From positions 1 through 25,372 of IMG/VR virus record IMGVR_UViG_3300047356_001007: a stretch of DNA of 25,372 nt, one strand, 5' to 3'. Numbering within the stretch: position 1 is the stretch's first letter; each line of letters begins with the position of its first letter. Below the pieces are notes generated by a model, which did no database searches, had not been told where the DNA came from, and worked only from the letters and a program-made list of their open reading frames with translations. Below are positions 8,333 to 25,163 of this stretch, in pieces. This stretch comes from a virus. A program made the translations under genes and the position numbers.

Positions 8333-9922
8333 ATGAGTGAAAGAGAATATATTGTCACACTCAATAAGGGTGTTGATTACGCAGAATTCAACCAAGAAAT
8401 GATTTCGACAACAGGCGCTGGAGACATTCCAAATAGAACTGTTGACGTTGCAGATCCAAGAGTACTATCTACAAGAAATACACACTACGCATTAACACAA
8501 GCAGAGGCTGAAACTTTGCGTAACGATGGTAGAGTTACAGATGTACAACTACGTCCAGAAGACAGAGACGATATAGGTATAGGATACCAAGCAACACAAA
8601 CTGCTAATTTTAATAAATCATCAAGCGACTCAGGAGATTATAGAGACTGGGGGAAGATCAGACATAGTTTTGTAGAAAACAAATACGGCACATCAACTTC
8701 ATTAGCTACTAATCCTTTTGGCAGACCACATTCAATGGACGGAACAGGTGTTGATATTGTAATTCAAGATAGCGGATTACAAGTTGATCATCCAGAATTT
8801 CAAGATGCTAATGGAGTATCAAGAGTACAACTAATTGATTGGTATTCAGCTAGTGGAGTATCAGGATTTCAAAGTTCAAACCATTATAGAGACTATGACG
8901 GACACGGAACACATTGTGGCGGAACTGCAACAGGATTAAATTTTGGTTGGGCAACTAATGCTAGAATTTATAGTGTGAAAGTATCAGGTTTAGAAGGAAC
9001 AGGCGACTCGGGCGGAATAAGCACAAGTTTATGTTTTGATGTAATAAAAGGCTGGCATGAAAATAAACCTATAGACCCAAACACTGGTTATAAAAGACCT
9101 ACCATAGTAAATGCAAGTTGGGGATATAGTTTTTACATGGGAAGTTCTTTTACAAACATAAACAGTTATGTATATAGAGGAGCAAATTATAATTCTGGTA
9201 CAGCAGGCTGGAGCACTGGTACAACTTATCACAGAGATACATATGGATTTTATCCTTACTATGCAAGCGGAGGTTATCGAGGTCCTGTAAGATTAGCATC
9301 TGTAGATGCAGATGTGCAAGATTGTATAGATGCCGGTGTACATATTTGTATTGCGGCAGGTAACAATAGTTTTAAAATTGCTAATAGCAGTGATCCTGAT
9401 TACAATAATATTATTTTTTACGGTGGTGGATCAAATAATTATTACCATAGAGGTAGTTCTCCCTTTGATGACGAGGCACTTATAGTAGGCTGTACAGATA
9501 GCACTCCACAAGATGCAACAACAGAAAGAAAAACAAGTTTTAGTTCAACAGGACCAGGAGTAAATATTTTTGCCGCTGGAGAAAACATCGTAAGTGCATG
9601 TAGCACTGTTACTAGATTCGGAAACACACAATACTTTGGCAACTCTAGTTTTAAGCAAACAAATATTAGTGGAACGTCTATGGCTTCACCGCAGGTTTGC
9701 GGAGTGGGTGCATTATATCTACAAGCTGATCCTAGCCTAACTCCAGCACAATTAAAAAGCAAACTTGAAAACGATGCTTTATCTGTTTTAAAAGACGAAT
9801 CAAATAATAGTAACTACGGCGATACAACTGATATTTGTGGGGGGAATAACAGAATGTTGTTTAATAGATATAATAATGCTGTTCCTTTTACAAGTAATGT
9901 TATAGGACTGAAGAAGCGATAA
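8333..9922 (+). CDS. Subtilisin-like serine protease (peptidase S8 family) in the tail module
   Basis: A complete subtilase of 529 residues. Catalytic Asp146 lies in VIQDSGLQVDHPEF, His191 in YDGHGTHCGGT and Ser449 in ISGTSMASPQVCG; the oxyanion Asn is in CIAAGNNSF. Residues 5-75 (REYIVTLNKG; ALTQAEAETLRNDGRVTDVQ) look like an I9-type propeptide inhibitor. There is no signal peptide or transmembrane segment. The gene has its own GGAG site (8324-8327) and lies between fibre genes, with a late-type promoter for the next gene overlapping its stop. All triad residues are present, so it should be active. Plausible roles are processing of fibre proteins during assembly, or a virion-borne enzyme digesting host surface protein. 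The family call is firm; the role is inference. Confidence 0.93.
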   Translation: MSEREYIVTLNKGVDYAEFNQEMISTTGAGDIPNRTVDVADPRVLSTRNTHYALTQAEAETLRNDGRVTDVQLRPEDRDDIGIGYQATQTANFNKSSSDSGDYRDWGKIRHSFVENKYGTSTSLATNPFGRPHSMDGTGVDIVIQDSGLQVDHPEFQDANGVSRVQLIDWYSASGVSGFQSSNHYRDYDGHGTHCGGTATGLNFGWATNARIYSVKVSGLEGTGDSGGISTSLCFDVIKGWHENKPIDPNTGYKRPTIVNASWGYSFYMGSSFTNINSYVYRGANYNSGTAGWSTGTTYHRDTYGFYPYYASGGYRGPVRLASVDADVQDCIDAGVHICIAAGNNSFKIANSSDPDYNNIIFYGGGSNNYYHRGSSPFDDEALIVGCTDSTPQDATTERKTSFSSTGPGVNIFAAGENIVSACSTVTRFGNTQYFGNSSFKQTNISGTSMASPQVCGVGALYLQADPSLTPAQLKSKLENDALSVLKDESNNSNYGDTTDICGGNNRMLFNRYNNAVPFTSNVIGLKKR

Positions 9923-14240: not shown

Positions 14241-14480
14241 ATGCATCCGTTTGCAGAAGATACATCAGATATGACCGTATCGCAACTATACGATAAGATT
14301 ACAGAACTAACTTCAAAATATTTTGCAACCAATAATCCTCAGGTTCAACAACAAATTACAACGTTTATTGAATACTACAAGCAAGAAGCTCTTGTAAAAG
14401 AAGCCAAAATCCGAATTCAAGACAAAGAAAATCAACAAAATGGCGATTTAGATCTTGACAAACTGATTAATATCAGTTAA
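14241..14480 (+). CDS. Small hypothetical protein (79 aa), mostly helical
   Basis: Not recognised with certainty. The 79-residue product (MHPFAEDTSDMTVSQLYDKI...) is polar and rich in Gln, Lys and Glu with predicted helical character (VQQQITTFIEYYKQEAL and KEAKIRIQDKENQQ) and no Cys, signal peptide or membrane segment. It starts one base after the preceding stop, so it is probably translated by reinitiation with the structural gene at 13634. Similar short helical proteins occur beside tail genes in marine T4-like phages, but I cannot name a function. Confidence 0.6.
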   Translation: MHPFAEDTSDMTVSQLYDKITELTSKYFATNNPQVQQQITTFIEYYKQEALVKEAKIRIQDKENQQNGDLDLDKLINIS

Positions 14481-14489
14481 AATACATGT

Positions 14490-15020
14490 ATGCTTATGAA
14501 AACAGACTCACTCGGTATTCCGAGATTTAATAACAAAGACCTTGTCGACATGATTTATAGTGGAAACGCTGATAAGTGTCATGTAGTTCTCTGTGATGCA
14601 TCTGATGATGTAGAACAATTTAATGAGGCTATGGAAGAACAAGGCCTTAATAAACTACAAAAATATATTCCCTTAGATGTAGATCAAAAGACCTTTGATG
14701 GAGTATGTCAAGGTGAATGGTTTATGCCTGATGAGTATAAAGACATTAATGTTTATGAATATGTATTAGGTAAGGCAGAAACACCTTGTCCACAACATGT
14801 ACAAGATCGTATTTGGGAAGAAATGGAACAATACAAGCAACGTGATATGCACAACTTATTACGTTACATGATCTACTTAGTAGACTTTATGCGTGAAAAC
14901 AATATTGTATGGGGTGTAGGTAGAGGATCAAGTGTAGCAAGTTATGTGTTATATTTAATTGGTGTACATAAAATAGATTCAATCCAGTTTGACCTGGATT
15001 GGAGAGAGTTCTTGAGATAA
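14490..15020 (+). CDS. DNA polymerase III alpha (DnaE)-like fragment protein, lacking catalytic aspartates
   Basis: The 176-residue protein matches the DnaE region around the GRGS motif at its C-terminus: residues about 104-143 resemble the helix-rich segment ending NNIVWGV, residues 144-148 are GRGSS, then VASYVLYLIGVHKIDSIQFD and finally EFLR. In cellular DnaE this stretch reads GRGS-x-GSLVAY...DPL...LLFERFLNPER and is followed directly by the PDxDxDF catalytic motif. Here the stop falls right after EFLR, so no polymerase active site is present. The N-terminal 100 residues are unrecognised. The start is ATG 14490 or 14496; neither has a clear ribosome site. A regulatory, scaffold or decoy role at the host replisome is possible but speculative. 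The frame is clean and codon use resembles neighbours, so it is not obviously a decayed pseudogene. Confidence 0.7.
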   Translation: MLMKTDSLGIPRFNNKDLVDMIYSGNADKCHVVLCDASDDVEQFNEAMEEQGLNKLQKYIPLDVDQKTFDGVCQGEWFMPDEYKDINVYEYVLGKAETPCPQHVQDRIWEEMEQYKQRDMHNLLRYMIYLVDFMRENNIVWGVGRGSSVASYVLYLIGVHKIDSIQFDLDWREFLR

Positions 15021-15045: not shown

Positions 15046-15441
15046 ATGGCAGTAAAACAAACAGGTCGAAAACAATACAGATCAATGCAGGGTAAACCTG
15101 TTGATATGGATTTGTTAAGACAAAGAAACGAACTAACACCAGCAGTTGGTAACGTTCGTGTTAATGCTAGAGGCGACGAACTAGGCGCTGGCGGAAAGAT
15201 TATTAAAAAGCGTGAAGACGTTTTACGTGATTTTTATGAAGATAATGTTGAGCCTACACAGTTTGAAGCATCTGAAAAAGCACCAGTAGTAGAAGAGCCA
15301 GTAGTTGAAGCAACAGAAGTTGAAGCACCTAAGGCACGTTCTACTAAAGCAAAAGTAGGCCAAACAAAAGCTGAAGCAAAAGAAGAAGCTGATGAATGGG
15401 TAGAAGACGCAGACGGCAACTTTGTAAAAAGAGGTGACTAA
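15046..15441 (+). CDS. Conserved-looking hypothetical protein with acidic Ala/Glu-rich C-terminus
   Basis: Not assigned. The 131-residue protein has a basic N-terminus (MAVKQTGRKQYRSMQGKPVD, then MDLLRQRNELTPAVGN) and a Gly-rich centre (ARGDELGAGGKIIKKREDVLR). A low-complexity tail of Val/Glu/Ala/Lys (EEPVVEATEVEAPKARSTKA) follows, and it ends with DEWVEDADGNFVKRGD. The charge asymmetry suggests a DNA- or protein-binding accessory factor with a flexible arm. AGGAGAAG at about 15034-15041 gives a strong ribosome site. Its stop overlaps the start of the GroES-like gene (TAATG), so the two are translationally coupled. Confidence 0.6.
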   Translation: MAVKQTGRKQYRSMQGKPVDMDLLRQRNELTPAVGNVRVNARGDELGAGGKIIKKREDVLRDFYEDNVEPTQFEASEKAPVVEEPVVEATEVEAPKARSTKAKVGQTKAEAKEEADEWVEDADGNFVKRGD

Positions 15442-15899
15442 TGTCAATTGATTATCAAGCAATGGCCCAAGGCCGAAAAGGTATTCAAGGAAAGATTGAG
15501 GCAGAAAGTATTCGTCCAATCAGAAATAGAGTACTAGTACATAATATGCACTTTGGTGAACAAACTACTAAAGGTGGAATTATTATTAGAAGTGACGACG
15601 GTGAAACTAGAGGCATTTATCCACGTTGGGGACAAGTATATGCTAAAGGTCCAGAGAACAAAGATCCATACGAAGAAGGACATTGGATTTTAATTGAACA
15701 TGGACGTTGGACTAGAGGACTTGAACTTCATTTAGCAGGAGAACCTGTTACTATTAGGATGGTTGAAACTGAAAGTATTATTGGATGGAGTGAAGAAGCA
15801 CCATCAAATGATTTACGCATTGGTGAAGAAATGGATCTAAGCGGAGACAAAGCAAGACCGGAAGACTTTACAAACGCCCACGGGCAAATGAATCAATAG
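15441..15899 (+). CDS. GroES-like co-chaperonin (gp31-type candidate)
   Basis: Residues 24-118 follow the GroES fold pattern: IRPIRNRVLVHNM (first strand), a mobile-loop-like EQTTKGGIII (40-49), GQVYAKGPEN, EEGHWILIEHGRW and a final MVETESIIGWSEE strand. At 152 residues it is longer than GroES or T4 gp31, with extra N- and C-terminal tails. T4 gp31 replaces GroES on host GroEL to fold the major capsid protein, and this protein is expected to act similarly in the cytoplasm. Its start overlaps the upstream stop by one base. The match is at pattern level; an OB-fold protein is the main alternative. Confidence 0.65.
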   Translation: MSIDYQAMAQGRKGIQGKIEAESIRPIRNRVLVHNMHFGEQTTKGGIIIRSDDGETRGIYPRWGQVYAKGPENKDPYEEGHWILIEHGRWTRGLELHLAGEPVTIRMVETESIIGWSEEAPSNDLRIGEEMDLSGDKARPEDFTNAHGQMNQ

Positions 15900-16961: not shown

Positions 16962-17126
16962 ATGAAATTTCCAAAACCACAAACAAGTAGCATAGGCACA
17001 ACAGGCCTAGCTGGTGTAGCATTAATGACGTTGCATTTAACCGGTATGATTACAGGATGGGGATGGCCTATACTTTATATACTGCTTATCATAAGTGCAA
17101 TAGGTCAAGAAAATAGGAAAGGTTAA
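16962..17126 (+). CDS. Small membrane protein (54 aa)
   Basis: A short gene in the 218-base gap after the HAD gene. The ATG at 16962 has GGAG at 16952-16955, six bases upstream. The product starts MKFPKPQTSSIGTTGLAGVA and has one or two hydrophobic segments (about 15-30 and 33-48, including WPILYILLIISAIG), ending QENRKG. Its stop overlaps the ATG of the exonuclease gene by one base. As the first gene after a strong promoter it is likely made early. No known family recognised; a small inner-membrane protein acting on the host is an inference. Confidence 0.75.
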   Translation: MKFPKPQTSSIGTTGLAGVALMTLHLTGMITGWGWPILYILLIISAIGQENRKG

Positions 17127-17665
17127 TGGCAACACACGGAATGATTGACTTGGAGACACTTGGCGTTGAGCCAGATAGTGTTATTATTACTCTAGGTGCG
17201 GTAAAATTTGATCCGTTCAGTGATGCTGAACCCAATCATGGTTTGTATCTACGTTGTGACGTAGAAGAACAATCAGAAAAATATGGTCGGAGTATTGACG
17301 ACAATACATTAGCATGGTGGAGTAAACAAAAGCAAGAAATCCAAGACGAAGCCTTTGGAGATCATGAGCGAGTAAATATGGATAGCTTAACAAAACAACT
17401 TAACAAATGGTGTGTTGGAGTTGATTATCTATGGTGTCAAGGACCTTTATTTGATTATGCAATATTACAAAACTTATACAAGAACGTTGGCAAGCCTTGT
17501 CCGTGGAACTTTTGGCAAATTAGAGATAGTAGAACTGCGTTTGCAATGATGCCTAGTGATCCACGTAAAGCAATACAAGAGCAATTACACAATGCACTAG
17601 CAGATTGTTACTATCAAGCAAAATGCTTACAGCAAACATATAAACATTTCGGAATAACAAAATGA
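17126..17665 (+). CDS. dexA: DexA-like 3'-5' exonuclease (DEDDh family)
   Basis: The 179-residue protein has all DEDDh residues: Asp8 and Glu10 in MIDLETLG, Asp110 in CQGPLFDYAIL, and His155 with Asp160 in HNALADC. Overall order and length fit the T4 DexA/exoribonuclease-like group, which degrades single-stranded DNA or RNA from the 3' end. In T4, DexA is an accessory early exonuclease, fitting its place just behind the sigma-70 promoter. Substrate preference (DNA or RNA) cannot be decided from sequence. It overlaps the upstream small gene by one base, and the next small gene by four (ATGA). Confidence 0.87.
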   Translation: MATHGMIDLETLGVEPDSVIITLGAVKFDPFSDAEPNHGLYLRCDVEEQSEKYGRSIDDNTLAWWSKQKQEIQDEAFGDHERVNMDSLTKQLNKWCVGVDYLWCQGPLFDYAILQNLYKNVGKPCPWNFWQIRDSRTAFAMMPSDPRKAIQEQLHNALADCYYQAKCLQQTYKHFGITK

Positions 17666-17829
17666 AAAAGAAAATAGATACAAGACGAGATGCTTGGGAT
17701 AGAGATTATATGGGCGGGCATTATGTGAAGCCTGAGCCAACAAGCACTAAACAAATTTCAAATGCGGCACCAGTACTTGTGTTTGCATTTTTCTTTATAG
17801 CAATATTAATAATGGTAGGTAACAAATGA
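17662..17829 (+). CDS. Small membrane protein (55 aa)
   Basis: The ATG at 17662 overlaps the exonuclease stop (ATGA) and its TGA (17827-17829) overlaps the start of the clamp-loader gene (ATGA again), so it fits exactly between two sure genes. The product has a basic, polar N-terminal half (MKKKIDTRRDAWDRDYMGGH) and one C-terminal transmembrane segment (VLVFAFFFIAILIMV), followed by GNK. The topology is probably N-in with a single anchor. No family recognised. The double overlap is the main evidence that it is translated. Confidence 0.7.
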   Translation: MKKKIDTRRDAWDRDYMGGHYVKPEPTSTKQISNAAPVLVFAFFFIAILIMVGNK

Positions 17830-18740
17830 AAGAATTATGGGTAGAGAAATACCGTCCAAGCACAGTTGATGGATATGTATTTAGAGATGATGCACAAAAG
17901 CAACAAGTTAATCAATGGATCAAAGATGGTACTATTCCGCATTTGCTGTTTAGTGGCAATGCAGGCATTGGTAAGACAACACTTGCAAAGATTCTTCTTA
18001 ATCAATTAGAAGTAGGCGATCTTGATATACTAGAGATTAATGCTAGTAGAACAAACAGTGTAGAAGATGTGCGTGATAAGATTGTAAACTTTGTACAAAT
18101 GATTCCATTTGGTGAGTTTAAGGTTGTACTACTTGATGAGGCTGATTATTTAAGTCCAAACGCACAGGCGGCACTACGTGGTGTTATGGAGGAGTATCAT
18201 ACAACAGCAAGATTTATTTTAACTTGTAACTATCCTAACAGAATTATTCCTGCACTACATAGCAGGTGTCAAGGCTTTCATATTGAACGTATTGACCAAA
18301 CAGAATTTACTGCACGAGTTGCAGAAATTGTTCTTACAGAAGGTGTTACTCCAGACTTGGATATCTTAGACACTTATGTAAAAGCAACGTATCCTGATTT
18401 GCGTAAATGTATTAACATGGTGCAAATGAATTGTGTTGACGGCAAACTAGTGCCGCCGGCTAAAGCAGATACAGGTGATGCTGACTATAAGATTGAAATG
18501 GTTGAATTGTTTAAAGCGGGTAAGATAGGACAAGCACGTAAACTAGTCTGTTCGCAAGCAAGGCCAGAAGAGATTGAAGATATATACAAATGGTTGTATG
18601 ACAACATTGATCTGTTTGGTGATGAAGAAAAGCAAGAAAGTGCAATCCTAATTATTAAGCAAGGACTTGTAGATCATACATTAGTTTCCGATCCGGAGAT
18701 TAATTTAGCCGCAACCTTAATTAGATTAGCGAGATTGTAA
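17826..18740 (+). CDS. 44: Sliding-clamp loader subunit, gp44-like (RFC small subunit-type AAA+ ATPase)
   Basis: The 304-residue AAA+ protein is close to the usual gp44 length. Walker A is GNAGIGKT (44-51), Walker B VVLLDEAD (100-107), sensor 1 lies in ILTCNYPNR and the arginine-finger motif SRC is at 146-148. It opens WVEKYRPSTVDGYV, a hallmark of RFC/gp44 proteins. Four gp44 subunits plus one gp62 load the gp45 clamp on primer-template DNA. A gp62 partner and gp45 clamp are not seen here and would lie outside the window. It is inside the overlapping early block, four bases into the preceding gene. Confidence 0.95.
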   Translation: MKELWVEKYRPSTVDGYVFRDDAQKQQVNQWIKDGTIPHLLFSGNAGIGKTTLAKILLNQLEVGDLDILEINASRTNSVEDVRDKIVNFVQMIPFGEFKVVLLDEADYLSPNAQAALRGVMEEYHTTARFILTCNYPNRIIPALHSRCQGFHIERIDQTEFTARVAEIVLTEGVTPDLDILDTYVKATYPDLRKCINMVQMNCVDGKLVPPAKADTGDADYKIEMVELFKAGKIGQARKLVCSQARPEEIEDIYKWLYDNIDLFGDEEKQESAILIIKQGLVDHTLVSDPEINLAATLIRLARL

Positions 18741-19184
18741 ATGAAGATTTTAATATTTGGACTACCTGGTAGTGGGAAAACTACACTTGCAAAACCCTTT
18801 GCAGACTTAATTGGAGCAGTACACATTAACGCTGATGCAGTACGTACACAGTACGAAGGACCAGACATGACTAAATGGAACTTTAGTCTGGAAGGTCGTA
18901 TGCAACAGTCACAGCGTATGCGTCATTTAGCTGATGGAGTAGTCATGGCCGGCAAAATTGCAGTTGCTGACTTTGTGTGCCCCACAGAAGAAGCACGTAC
19001 ACAGTTTGCGCCAAACTATACTGTTTGGATGGATACTATCAAAGAAGGAAGATTTGAAGATACTAATAAAATGTTTAAAGCACCTACACACTTTGACTAC
19101 CATGTAAAAGAATGGTTTACTGATACACACGCACAACTTTCAGAAGTAGTAAAAAATTATATGGAGAGAAACAATGTCGTTTGA
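18741..19184 (+). CDS. P-loop kinase, adenylylsulfate kinase-like
   Basis: The 147-residue protein starts with MKILIFGLPGSGKTTLAKPF (Walker A at 7-15). It continues with HINADAVR (about 28-35), which resembles the LDGDNVR segment of APS kinase (CysC), and ADFVCPTEEAR (76-86), which resembles CysC's SPYREDR region. A conserved-looking VWMDTIKEGRFEDTN follows. APS kinase phosphorylates adenylyl sulfate; other small P-loop kinases (polynucleotide, gluconate-type) share this layout, so the substrate is uncertain. It begins directly after the clamp-loader stop and overlaps the nucleotidyltransferase gene by 11 bases, which suggests the two enzymes act together. Confidence 0.75.
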   Translation: MKILIFGLPGSGKTTLAKPFADLIGAVHINADAVRTQYEGPDMTKWNFSLEGRMQQSQRMRHLADGVVMAGKIAVADFVCPTEEARTQFAPNYTVWMDTIKEGRFEDTNKMFKAPTHFDYHVKEWFTDTHAQLSEVVKNYMERNNVV

Positions 19185-19587
19185 TTTACAAAAACCTACA
19201 ACACAAATGCTTGGACGTTGGCAACCTTGGCATCCTGGACATACAGAACTGTTCAAACGTGCAATATCCGAAACAGGTCAAGTATGTATTATGGTTCGTG
19301 ACGTTGGCGGCATTATAGGTAAAGACGCTGGCGCAGGACGTACTGCAACTCAAGACGATAATCCGTTTGAATTTCATACTATTAGTGGTGATATACAATG
19401 GGCATTAAAGCAAGAAGGTTACGAGCATCATGTAGACTATATTATTATGCAAGTACCCAACATTGTAGATATTAGTTACGGACGAGGTGTAGGCTACACT
19501 TTTACAGAACATGACTTAGGAAAAGAGATACATAATATTAGTGCAACAAACATACGTGCAGAAATGCGAGATAAAGGAGAGCTATGA
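19174..19587 (+). CDS. HxGH-type nucleotidyltransferase (cytidylyl/adenylyltransferase-like)
   Basis: The 137-residue protein has the nucleotidyltransferase start [17 protein letters not shown], with the HxGH motif at His20-His23, and the C-terminal ISATNIR (122-128) equivalent to the ISxTxxR motif. These bind the triphosphate of ATP or CTP in NMN adenylyltransferase, phosphopantetheine adenylyltransferase, glycerol-phosphate cytidylyltransferase and relatives (ATP sulfurylase uses a similar fold). The R-x-QP-x-HxGH opening leans towards NadM-like enzymes. The second substrate is unknown. The gene overlaps the kinase by 11 bases and the ferredoxin by four. Confidence 0.8.
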
Positions 19588-19925
19588 CCTATCTAGTCAA
19601 CGATAACTGTATTAAATGTAAACATATGGATTGTGTAGAAGTATGTCCTGTAGACTGTTTTTATGAAGGCGAAAACATGCTTGTAATTAATCCAGACGAA
19701 TGTATTGACTGCGGAGTATGTGAACCCGAATGTCCAGTAGATGCTATTATTACAGACTTTCAAGATACTGATAATAAATTTTACGAGCTTAATCATAAAT
19801 GGTCAAACACTTGGCCTAATATTACAACAAAAGAAGAATCACAAGTACCAGCTGATGCAGAAGAATGGGCAGACGTAAAAGACAAGATGAAATACTTTTC
19901 TGAAAAACCCGGAGCAGGAGATTAG
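19584..19925 (+). CDS. fdxA: Seven-iron ferredoxin (3Fe-4S plus 4Fe-4S), FdxA-like
   Basis: The 113-residue protein follows Azotobacter FdI/FdxA over its full length. Cysteines 9, 17 and 50 match the 3Fe-4S ligands and cysteines 21, 40, 43 and 46 the 4Fe-4S ligands, in [18 protein letters not shown] and [15 protein letters not shown]. The tail (SNTWPNIT, then EEWADVK and [10 protein letters not shown]) resembles alphaproteobacterial FdxA, which often ends with a similar GKGD-like sequence. It is a soluble low-potential electron carrier; the partner is unknown, though phage or host oxidoreductases are candidates. All ligands are intact, so it should be functional. It overlaps the preceding gene by four bases and the next starts one base after its stop. 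It is a host-derived auxiliary gene by inference. Confidence 0.95.
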
Positions 19926-20246
19926 ATGAAATTAAAATGCAAACACATTTTATTAAGTTTTGATAAATCACCAAATAGTTCTCACGATAGACCTTTAGGT
20001 GTTGCTGTTGCTGATGCTGAACAACTAATAAAAGATATTAAAAGCAGTAAAATTAGTTTTACCGAAGCGGCAGGCAAACATAGTGCATGTGCAAGTGGTC
20101 CAAGACACGGCGGAGAGCTAGGATGGTTTGAAGAAGAAAAAATGCACCCTGACTTTAGTAATGCTGTAAAAGTAATTCAAGTTGACGATATTGGTCCACC
20201 TGTGATTACTCCTTGGGGTGTACATATTGTATATAGGCAAGGTTAA
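19926..20246 (+). CDS. Parvulin-type (PpiC/Pin) peptidyl-prolyl cis-trans isomerase
   Basis: The 106-residue protein consists of a single rotamase domain with no signal peptide or anchor. It has the parvulin HIL strand in CKHILLSF, then FTEAAGKHSACASGP, GGELGWFEEEKMHPDFSNAV, and the C-terminal PPVITPWGVHIVYRQG strand. It should catalyse Xaa-Pro isomerisation in the cytoplasm. It lies between the ferredoxin and methyltransferase genes, its stop overlapping the next ATG by one base. Candidate clients are phage structural proteins or host proteins. Confidence 0.88.
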   Translation: MKLKCKHILLSFDKSPNSSHDRPLGVAVADAEQLIKDIKSSKISFTEAAGKHSACASGPRHGGELGWFEEEKMHPDFSNAVKVIQVDDIGPPVITPWGVHIVYRQG

Positions 20247-20884
20247 TGGGTCCTGAAGGTTCAAATTTAAAATTTAGCGAAAACGGCTGTGATTTTTGGG
20301 CGTTGGACAATAGCTATTATAGAAAAGGTTTCTTTGTTGATATTGGTGCTAGTGATGGAGTTACTGCTAGTAATACATACTTGCTTGAAAAGTTTTATAA
20401 ATGGCAGGGCATCTGTGTAGATCCAAATCCTGTTACATTAAAAAGTATGTGTGGTGCTAGAGATACAATAGTTAGCGACCTTTGTGTATACAATGAATCA
20501 GGAAAAATATTACCTTTTAAATACTTAGGTGACCAATCAGAATTTTATGGTTGGAATCTTCGAAGTGGTATAGATGGTCTTGTAAGCAAAGATATGCCTG
20601 TTAAAATGAACGATCATAAAGTGTTTACAATTACACTTACGGATTTGTTAGAACTTTATAATGCGCCTAATAAGATTGATTACATAAGCATTGATGTTGA
20701 AGGAAGTGAAATTGAAGTTTTAACAGGACTTGACTTTTCTAAATATGATGTTAAAATGTTTAGTATAGAATATGAGAATGAAGAAAATAGAGCAAAGATA
20801 GACTGGATCATGTCTAGAAATAATTATAATAGAGTTGACTTTGATCAACAATGTACAGAAGATAGGTATATAAAGAATGGTTGA
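20246..20884 (+). CDS. FkbM-family SAM-dependent methyltransferase
   Basis: The 212-residue protein has motif I VDIGASDGVTASNTYLLEK (31-49), a SAM-ribose acidic segment ICVDPNP (56-62), and the FkbM signature IDYISIDVEGSEIEVLTGLD (144-163), followed by FSIEYENEE. FkbM enzymes methylate oxygen on sugars or small molecules. In marine T4-like phages they are often found with 2OG oxygenases and sugar-modifying genes; here a 2OG oxygenase follows directly with an eight-base overlap. Substrate unknown. It could modify lipopolysaccharide, a phage glycan or DNA. Confidence 0.85.
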   Translation: MGPEGSNLKFSENGCDFWALDNSYYRKGFFVDIGASDGVTASNTYLLEKFYKWQGICVDPNPVTLKSMCGARDTIVSDLCVYNESGKILPFKYLGDQSEFYGWNLRSGIDGLVSKDMPVKMNDHKVFTITLTDLLELYNAPNKIDYISIDVEGSEIEVLTGLDFSKYDVKMFSIEYENEENRAKIDWIMSRNNYNRVDFDQQCTEDRYIKNG

Positions 20885-21410
20885 GTATGAATACTACGAT
20901 TGGAACAACTTACTTACAGAAGACGACAGACAAAGAATGTGTCGTGATGTATCAACTGGTATAGACTCTGGTAAATTTTGGACTAACAGTCCTAAGTATC
21001 AAACTGATTGGAATGTGTTCCAAGACTTTACAGATCTAAAGATGAGTTTTCTTTGGAGTTGTTTTAGATACTTAGGTAGAGAAGTTCAAATTAAGAATGT
21101 ACAAAGCTGGAGTTTTCGTACAAGTTTAAAACACGTTGAAACTAGAGATACACTTTGGCATCATCATAATCATAATAAAGAAACAAAAACAGTAAGTGGT
21201 GTATACTATATGCACTTACCTGATGATGTAAAAGATTTAGAAAAAGCAGGAACAGAATTAGCACCTGTTAGTCCAGAAGGTGAAGGTAACTTTTTTGTAC
21301 CTTGGAAAACAGGACATTGGATGATTTATCCTGGAGCGGTATGGCATCGTCCAGGCGTAGTACAATCACAACAAGACCGCTTTATTGTAGCGGCAGATAT
21401 GGAGTTTTAA
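20877..21410 (+). CDS. 2-oxoglutarate/Fe(II)-dependent oxygenase-like protein
   Basis: The 177-residue protein has a central His cluster (WHHHNHN, residues 94-100) followed by VSGVYYMHLP. The distal part GHWMIYPGAVWHRPG (147-160) supplies His157, with Arg168 in QQDRFIVAADMEF as the 2-oxoglutarate contact. This is the layout of the phage 2OG-Fe(II) oxygenases that hydroxylate sugars or proteins. The HxD part of the classical iron triad is not obvious, so the metal ligands are uncertain. It overlaps the FkbM gene by eight bases and probably acts in the same modification pathway. Confidence 0.78.
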   Translation: MVEYEYYDWNNLLTEDDRQRMCRDVSTGIDSGKFWTNSPKYQTDWNVFQDFTDLKMSFLWSCFRYLGREVQIKNVQSWSFRTSLKHVETRDTLWHHHNHNKETKTVSGVYYMHLPDDVKDLEKAGTELAPVSPEGEGNFFVPWKTGHWMIYPGAVWHRPGVVQSQQDRFIVAADMEF

Positions 21411-24169: not shown

Positions 24170-24322
24170 ATGAACAACTGTTTAAACTGCGGACACGGAT
24201 CACATTGCGGGACAAGTTTATTCAAAGATCATAAAGACGGCGATAACCAAATTATAAATATTAAAGTATGTGAGCAATGTCGGTGTAAGGCATGCCAAAC
24301 AAAGGATACAGATAATGGCTAA
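24170..24322 (+). CDS. Small Cys-rich zinc-ribbon-like protein (50 aa)
   Basis: The ATG at 24170 follows the previous stop directly and the TAA (24320-24322) overlaps the endolysin start by eight bases. The product (MNNCLNCGHGSHCGTSLFKD...) has seven cysteines: 4, 7, 13, 34, 37, 39 and 42, giving CxxC near the N-terminus and CxxCxCxxC near the C-terminus, plus His9 and His12, which suggests one zinc site or two. Small zinc-ribbon proteins of this style occur in marine T4-like phages. Its own function is unknown. A late promoter octamer lies inside it. Confidence 0.75.
   Translation: MNNCLNCGHGSHCGTSLFKDHKDGDNQIINIKVCEQCRCKACQTKDTDNG
24253..24260 (+). promoter_or_regulatory. T4-consensus late promoter (TATAAATA) ahead of the endolysin
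   Basis: TATAAATA, the exact T4 late -10 element, lies inside the Cys-rich small gene, 54 bases before the endolysin ATG at 24315. It would give late transcription of the lysis genes independent of the structural genes. It is the only exact T4-consensus octamer I noticed in the window. Confidence 0.6.
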
Positions 24323-25163
24323 AGAACACTTTAAATTTGATTTCGAAGAATGGATGGCAGAAGAGCTTATTCATAGAGACGACTGGAAAGATTGGTACGA
24401 AGCAATGTTAGAAGTGCTTCCGTTATGGGAAGTAAATACAGCAGAGCGTGTAGCAATGTTTGTAGCACAGTGTGGACACGAGTCCGGCGGCTTTAGAGTA
24501 CTAAGTGAAAACTTAAACTACAGCGCCAAAGCACTTAACACAATTTTTCCTAAGTATTTTAGACGAGCAAACAGAGATGCAAATGAATATCATAGACAAC
24601 CTGAAAAAATCGCAAACGTTATTTACGCTTCACGTATGGACAACGGCGACACTGATAGCGGTGACGGCTGGCGCTTTCGCGGTGGTGGTATACTTCAGTT
24701 AACTGGACGTTACAATTATACACAGTTTGCTAAAGAAATGGAAATGACTCCAGAAGAAGCAACCGACTATGTACGCACTAAGAAAGGCGCACTAGACTCA
24801 GCATGTTGGTTCTGGGATACAAACGGCATAAACAAGTATTGTGATAACATGGACGTTGTAGGTGCTACAAAACGCATCAATGGTGGCACTATTGGATTAG
24901 ACGATCGTAAGAAACATTATCTACATGCAATGGATGTACTAGGTGGTGACTTTGAAGAGCCTGAAACAGATTACAATCAAACTATCAGAGTAGGATCACG
25001 TGGTCCATTAGTAGCAGAAGTACAAGAGAAACTTGATATTTCACCTGCTGACGGTATCTTTGGTCCAGGTACTGCACGTATTGTTAAAGAGTGGCAATCA
25101 AGTCAAGGCTTAGTTGCTGATGGTATAGTCGGACCTAAGACGCTGGGAAAGTTACTAGGGTAA
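24315..25163 (+). CDS. GH19 chitinase-type endolysin with C-terminal peptidoglycan-binding domain
   Basis: I use ATG 24315, with AAAGGA (24300-24305) about nine bases upstream; the frame also extends to a GTG at 24270, which is less likely. The 282-residue protein has the GH19 signature MFVAQCGHESGGFRVLSENL (catalytic Glu56, second Glu65) and DGWRFRGGGILQLTGRYNY (117-135). A PG_binding_1-like domain follows at about 218-282 (TIRVGSRGPLVAEVQEKL; ADGIFGPGTARIVKEWQ; VADGIVGPKTLGKLL). GH19 lysins cut the glycan strands of peptidoglycan. No signal peptide is present, so release should need a holin or another route. It is followed by a membrane-anchored spanin candidate. Confidence 0.9.
   Translation: MAKEHFKFDFEEWMAEELIHRDDWKDWYEAMLEVLPLWEVNTAERVAMFVAQCGHESGGFRVLSENLNYSAKALNTIFPKYFRRANRDANEYHRQPEKIANVIYASRMDNGDTDSGDGWRFRGGGILQLTGRYNYTQFAKEMEMTPEEATDYVRTKKGALDSACWFWDTNGINKYCDNMDVVGATKRINGGTIGLDDRKKHYLHAMDVLGGDFEEPETDYNQTIRVGSRGPLVAEVQEKLDISPADGIFGPGTARIVKEWQSSQGLVADGIVGPKTLGKLLG

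Follow-up and report, generated by a model that had tools for sequence, protein, structure and literature searches.

A split minimal alpha subunit of DNA polymerase III (Pol III), encoded beside a family B polymerase, was predicted by sequence analysis in 2021 in the group 2.2 jumbo phages (PMC7824862), and its N-terminal and C-terminal units correspond to PHROG 11127 and PHROG 11778, respectively. In phage CBB, a truncated protein of 172 aa was recorded in 2017 (PMC5259590), and a protein of phage Atu_ph07 was annotated as Pol III alpha in 2018 (PMC6102473). In a survey of marine jumbo phages from 2022, PF07733 was recorded for 51.9% of a single cluster (PMC9123017). Our literature search found no experimental study on the binding or activity of the split enzyme.

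Here, we analyzed a stretch of viral DNA of 25,372 nucleotides (IMG/VR record IMGVR_UViG_3300047356_001007), referred to below as the window, in which the open reading frame (ORF) at 14490-15020 is a marine member of this already predicted split Pol III alpha family. A previous sequence-only reading of the window had regarded a family C polymerase fragment in a T4-like phage as unexpected. The fragment is real, but the 2021 work had already accounted for it as one of the two parts into which Pol III alpha is split (PMC7824862). Like the protein of the group 2.2 jumbo phages, the window gene product is a stand-alone, GRGS-bearing unit predicted to bind NTP at the N-terminal side of the enzyme; a distant gene for the predicted Mg- and template-binding unit is found in its relatives, and its lineage has a family B polymerase. 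It differs from them in belonging to a marine metagenomic clade, with the C-terminal unit unseen on the window, which is a fragment contig. The GRGS region is also homologous to that of the full-length phage DnaE proteins (PHROG 405; PB1-like Pseudomonas phages and Gordonia phages), but those are single long polypeptides, while the enzyme of the window is split and minimal. Beyond the 2021 prediction, we add controls for the seam between the two halves, structure models, a selection test and the marine distribution of the family. What appeared to be a broken polymerase fragment can be read as one half of a predicted two-part enzyme. The enzyme occurs widely among jumbo phages and in the sea, and the split explains why a protein of 170 aa was annotated as "DNA polymerase III alpha".

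The window gene encodes the predicted N-terminal half of a two-part Pol III alpha

The ORF and the parts of it that are relevant to the comparison with Pol III alpha are as follows:

14490-15020, plus strand: N-terminal half (N-half) of a split minimal Pol III alpha (PHROG 11127), 176 aa, uninterrupted ORF
14772-15014, plus strand: stretch homologous to the Pol III alpha palm, aa 95-175 (about 320-392 of E. coli DnaE)
14913-14930, plus strand: GVGRGS motif, aa 142-147, equivalent to GRGS of Pol III alpha
15006-15020, plus strand: EFLR followed by the TAA stop, the seam at which the bacterial chain continues into PDxDxDF

The ATG at 14499 is a candidate for the true start and would give a protein of 173 aa; since only one other length is more frequent in the relatives, translation may begin there. 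The Pfam family DNA_pol3_alpha matched residues 95-175 with an E-value of 6.7e-12 (46 bits, cut-off 23.9), and only positions 14-94 of the 260 in the PF07733 model, an N-terminal part, were matched by the window protein. A phmmer search against PDB further aligned residues 105-175 to residues 322-392 of E. coli Pol III alpha. The likeness of the C-terminal portion to the GRGS region, ending at EFLR just before PDxDxDF, was thus correctly recognized in the sequence-only reading, and this Pol III-like portion makes up about the last 80 residues. In addition, PHROG 11127 ("DNA polymerase", 171 aa) covered nearly the whole window protein with an E-value of 2e-44 (positions 11-171 of the 171 in the profile). 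Given this E-value over nearly the full length, the resemblance is far beyond chance, and the window gene is confirmed as a real family C fragment belonging to the phage family PHROG 11127.

The C-terminus of the window protein reads DLDWREFLR, whereas E. coli DnaE goes on with FLNPERVSMPDFDVDF, in which the catalytic residues D401 and D403 are located. The catalytic Asp triad (D401, D403 and D555 in E. coli) is not present in the window chain, which stops before DxDxD, and no match to the PHP domain, thumb, fingers or clamp-binding region was found in the window protein.

The catalytic aspartates are encoded by a separate gene in complete relatives

The search for a C-terminal half (C-half) was carried out with the 2021 split prediction known to us, but without the accessions of that paper. 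Six complete jumbo phage genomes (GAP32, MIJ3, Atu_ph07, K64-1, SCTP-2 and XacN1) were searched with phrog_405 and PF17657, and a second locus besides the N-half was detected in all six; in GAP32, it was a weak PF17657 match that was then confirmed through its ORF. PF07733 alone does not detect the C-half. In each of the six genomes, exactly one N-half is accompanied by an ORF for the C-half and by a polymerase of family B, and both halves were also found on six large IMG/VR records. The distance between the N-half and C-half genes in the relatives is about 15-183 kb.

The C-half ORFs of the six complete phages encode 188-216 aa, with DIDID or DVDID a few residues after the start, and belong to PHROG 11778 ("DNA polymerase", about 190 aa). 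The motifs DxDID, HxxG, KxDxL, IRPxK and KxH are invariant in the six phages. Among the C-halves from metagenomes, D[IV]DID, most often from residue 6, and KxDxL are present in 83/83, and IRPxK in 82/83. With hhalign, the C-half aligned to residues 509-642 of E. coli DnaE, D555 included, pairing KHNTGVY with KHAGGVV, GYFKxDFLN with GLVKFDFLG (D555) and LAIIRPAK with VALFRPGP. The C-half carries the third catalytic Asp plus the RPxK and KxH motifs of the fingers. Given DxDID and the equivalent of D555, the C-half holds the complete catalytic Asp triad of Pol III alpha, and GRGS is located in the N-half. Since the C-half profile alone found no polymerase in PDB, the identity of the C-half rests on PHROG 405 and PF17657, the fused profile described below, hhalign and the fold comparison.

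Compared with bacterial DnaE and PolC (PF07733; PDB 2hnh, 2hpi, 5lew and 3f2b), the palm fold around GRGS is shared, and the two halves are collinear with E. coli DnaE, the N-half with residues 320-392 and its partner with residue 401 onwards. In contrast to the bacterial enzymes, the window chain is without PHP domain and catalytic aspartates, and the C-terminal clamp-, tau- and OB-region is missing. The spacing between DxDxD and HxxG is about 27 residues in the C-half versus about 106 in E. coli, which suggests that the thumb is missing; none was found in either half. Both halves likewise have no PHP domain, clamp-binding region or C-terminal domains.

The two halves align to Pol III alpha through the seam

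Provided that the two proteins are parts of a single enzyme, joining the N-half and C-half in silico would be expected to give an unbroken alignment to Pol III alpha. A fused N+C profile was built from eight phages and matched Pol III alpha in PDB with an E-value of 1.5e-10, compared with 2.3e-4 for the N-half profile alone, and the alignment was continuous through the seam with a one-residue gap. Against E. coli DnaE, the N+C order gave an E-value of 2e-8 (36.8 bits), while the reversed C+N order gave 3.4e-5 (26.3 bits), the N-half followed by a column-shuffled C-half gave about 1e-3 (about 21 bits), and the C-half alone was not significant. The reversed-order and shuffled controls do not align straight across the seam.

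To compare folds, AlphaFold2 models were made from window- and locus-derived alignments, with a pLDDT of 91.1 for the window N-half and 92.5 for the C-half. When these models were compared with PDB using Foldseek, Pol III alpha or PolC made up the first 15 matches for the N-half and the first 14 for the C-half, with modest E-values (best 1.4e-2 and 9.7e-4, respectively) and query TM-scores of 0.3-0.5, and no credible fold other than Pol III alpha/PolC was found for either half. The profile and structure comparisons proposed in the sequence-only reading both matched Pol III alpha/PolC, and no unrelated fold emerged. The seam, control and structure results make the published split claim directly testable with two small proteins.

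The N-half gene is conserved and under purifying selection

Stand-alone copies of the N-half occur in many jumbo phages, including PA5oct/MIJ3, Atu_ph07, GAP32, K64-1/RaK2-like phages, 121Q, SCTP-2, XacN1, CBB and others, and hundreds of relatives are present in IMG/VR. None of the phage-collection isolates exceeded about 51% identity to the window N-half over the aligned part. For comparison, 162 copies from viral contigs were collected, 161 of them with a complete end. GVGRGS or GLGRGS (GxGRGS) was found in 162/162 copies, and none of the 162 runs on into DxDxD. All 161 complete frames are intact and encode 161-196 aa; 147 of them end in EFLR or EFLK, and the others are close variants or one to two residues longer. 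The N-half gene is under purifying selection, with a median pairwise dN/dS of 0.12 in the 78 closest N-halves. The suggestion that the uninterrupted frame is maintained is borne out by this value, and the search for homologues that had been recommended along with the dN/dS analysis revealed GxGRGS throughout and no decay.

These data also bear on whether the N-half might be what is left of a complete host dnaE that was once acquired and is now decaying. The N-half is shorter than any bacterial DnaE, and the protein of phage CBB was called "truncated" (PMC5259590), as would be expected of a remnant. Against this stand the conserved ends, the low dN/dS and the synteny kept across divergent phages, and with 161/161 complete copies intact we rejected decay, to which we give practically no credence.

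Family B polymerase and the search for a C-half in the clade of the window

DNA_pol_B was detected on contigs whose N-halves are 67-86% identical to that of the window (G001, G004, G005, G058 and G060-G063), in agreement with the earlier expectation that this T4-like phage, with its family C fragment, would use a family B polymerase. Given the presence of a family B polymerase both in the isolates and on the window-like contigs, the lineage appears to pair a family B replicase with a family C pair.

No second DnaE piece or C-half was found in the 25-kb window, a fragment, and no C-half linked to its clade was found on 30 plus 35 contigs and several larger ones, all fragments. Long fragmentary contigs of 113 kb (N-half 84% identical), 156 kb (67%) and 111 kb (68%) were likewise without it. 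This absence is not decisive, because the two genes lie up to 183 kb apart in relatives, and the window's own genome presumably encodes a partner as well. The nearest record with both halves is G055, whose N-half is 47% identical to that of the window, and contigs from marine samples that carry a C-half had no N-half on them. Weak tblastn matches to the C-half in G001 and G002 were rejected as short unrelated ORFs.

The sequence-only reading had suggested that the protein could serve as a decoy for the host replisome or regulate it. An N-half acting alone on host Pol III, at least in the clade of the window, would fit a stand-alone gene whose product resembles a piece of host DnaE, and also the lack of a partner on the clade's contigs, fragments as they are. 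The tau- and clamp-binding region of DnaE is C-terminal, however, and the matched palm piece is different from it. In addition, the N-half family occurs in phages of unrelated hosts with a common ending, and in every complete relative checked (6/6) a second gene supplies the aspartates and the remaining palm and fingers. We therefore consider a decoy or regulator highly improbable, and prefer a two-part enzyme.

Gene neighbourhood and the proposed role of the split enzyme

The genes around the N-half in the window are as follows:

14241-14480, plus strand: ORF of 79 aa upstream of the N-half (phrog_15348, unknown), conserved neighbour
15046-15441, plus strand: ORF of 131 aa downstream of the N-half (phrog_14844, unknown), conserved neighbour
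15441-15899, plus strand: GroES-like co-chaperonin/head morphogenesis protein (phrog_931, phrog_3188), conserved neighbour
17826-18740, plus strand: gp44-like sliding clamp loader ATPase, whose location nearby is conserved in the jumbo relatives

Using tblastn, homologues of the upstream ORF were found in 132/168 relatives and those of the downstream ORF in 162/168. The GroES-like gene lies within 1.5 kb of the N-half in 134/143 relatives, and the gp44 clamp loader within 4.8 kb in 83/96. The window has this conserved order of N-half, ORF of about 130 aa, GroES-like gene and gp44 clamp loader. An Rv2179c-like 3'-5' exonuclease at 17126-17665 (plus strand), near the N-half and the clamp loader, is a possible candidate for a proofreading partner. 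At the C-half loci, an opposite-strand ORF of about 125 aa with a WWW..SNR.IPI-like core is the convergent neighbour in all 80 IMG/VR loci (L111-L190), within 1.5 kb of the C-half in 78 of them, and was also seen at L098 and L105-L109.

In the Pol-beta-type nucleotidyltransferase superfamily, the incoming triphosphate is bound by a G[GS] element, to which the GRGS loop corresponds. We propose that a minimal family C nucleotidyltransferase resembling Pol III alpha is split in these phages, with the N-half as its N-terminal unit. The N-half would contribute the initial part of the palm, GRGS loop included, and bind the triphosphate of the incoming nucleotide. The C-half would contribute the metal site DxDxD, the last of the three catalytic aspartates and a shortened fingers region, and the two proteins would join in trans in the infected cell into one complete active site. 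That the N-half and C-half associate in this way beside the family B replicase is the most likely explanation and a rather probable one. Working alongside that replicase, the split enzyme may serve to fill gaps, to repair DNA or to synthesize one of the strands, a conjecture also made by the 2021 authors (PMC7824862).

Since the minimal enzyme is without thumb, PHP domain and clamp-binding regions, its activity is not assured. We give about even chances to the halves forming an active, thumb-less and PHP-less two-piece family C polymerase, second to the family B enzyme, in an abundant phage group. An active pair would amount to a minimal polymerase of family C, and one may ask why these phages would need two unrelated polymerases. 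The halves might also assemble into a catalytically dead complex with a structural or regulatory part in the phage replisome, taken up to bind primer-template or nucleotide alongside the family B polymerase and the clamp loader. Such a complex would be compatible with the absence, relative to E. coli DnaE, of the thumb, of about 80 residues from the stretch that separates DxDxD and HxxG, and of much of the fingers, with the family B polymerase in the same genomes, and with the location of the N-half gene near gp44. However, GRGS and the three catalytic aspartates are retained in every copy examined, which is unexpected for a dead enzyme, and we regard this explanation as unlikely.

Several other genes of the window, all on the plus strand, were noted. 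A subtilase-type serine protease of 529 aa (Peptidase_S8, E-value 3.5e-29) is encoded at 8333-9922 amid structural-looking genes. A metabolic run at 18741-21410 includes an APS-kinase-like P-loop protein, a nucleotidyltransferase-like ORF, a ferredoxin-like ORF, a PPIC rotamase, an FkbM methyltransferase and a 2OG-Fe(II) oxygenase; as a clue to the host, the APS-kinase-like gene points to marine bacteria in general. A lysozyme/chitinase-like protein (GH19, weak) with a peptidoglycan-binding domain is encoded at 24270-25163.
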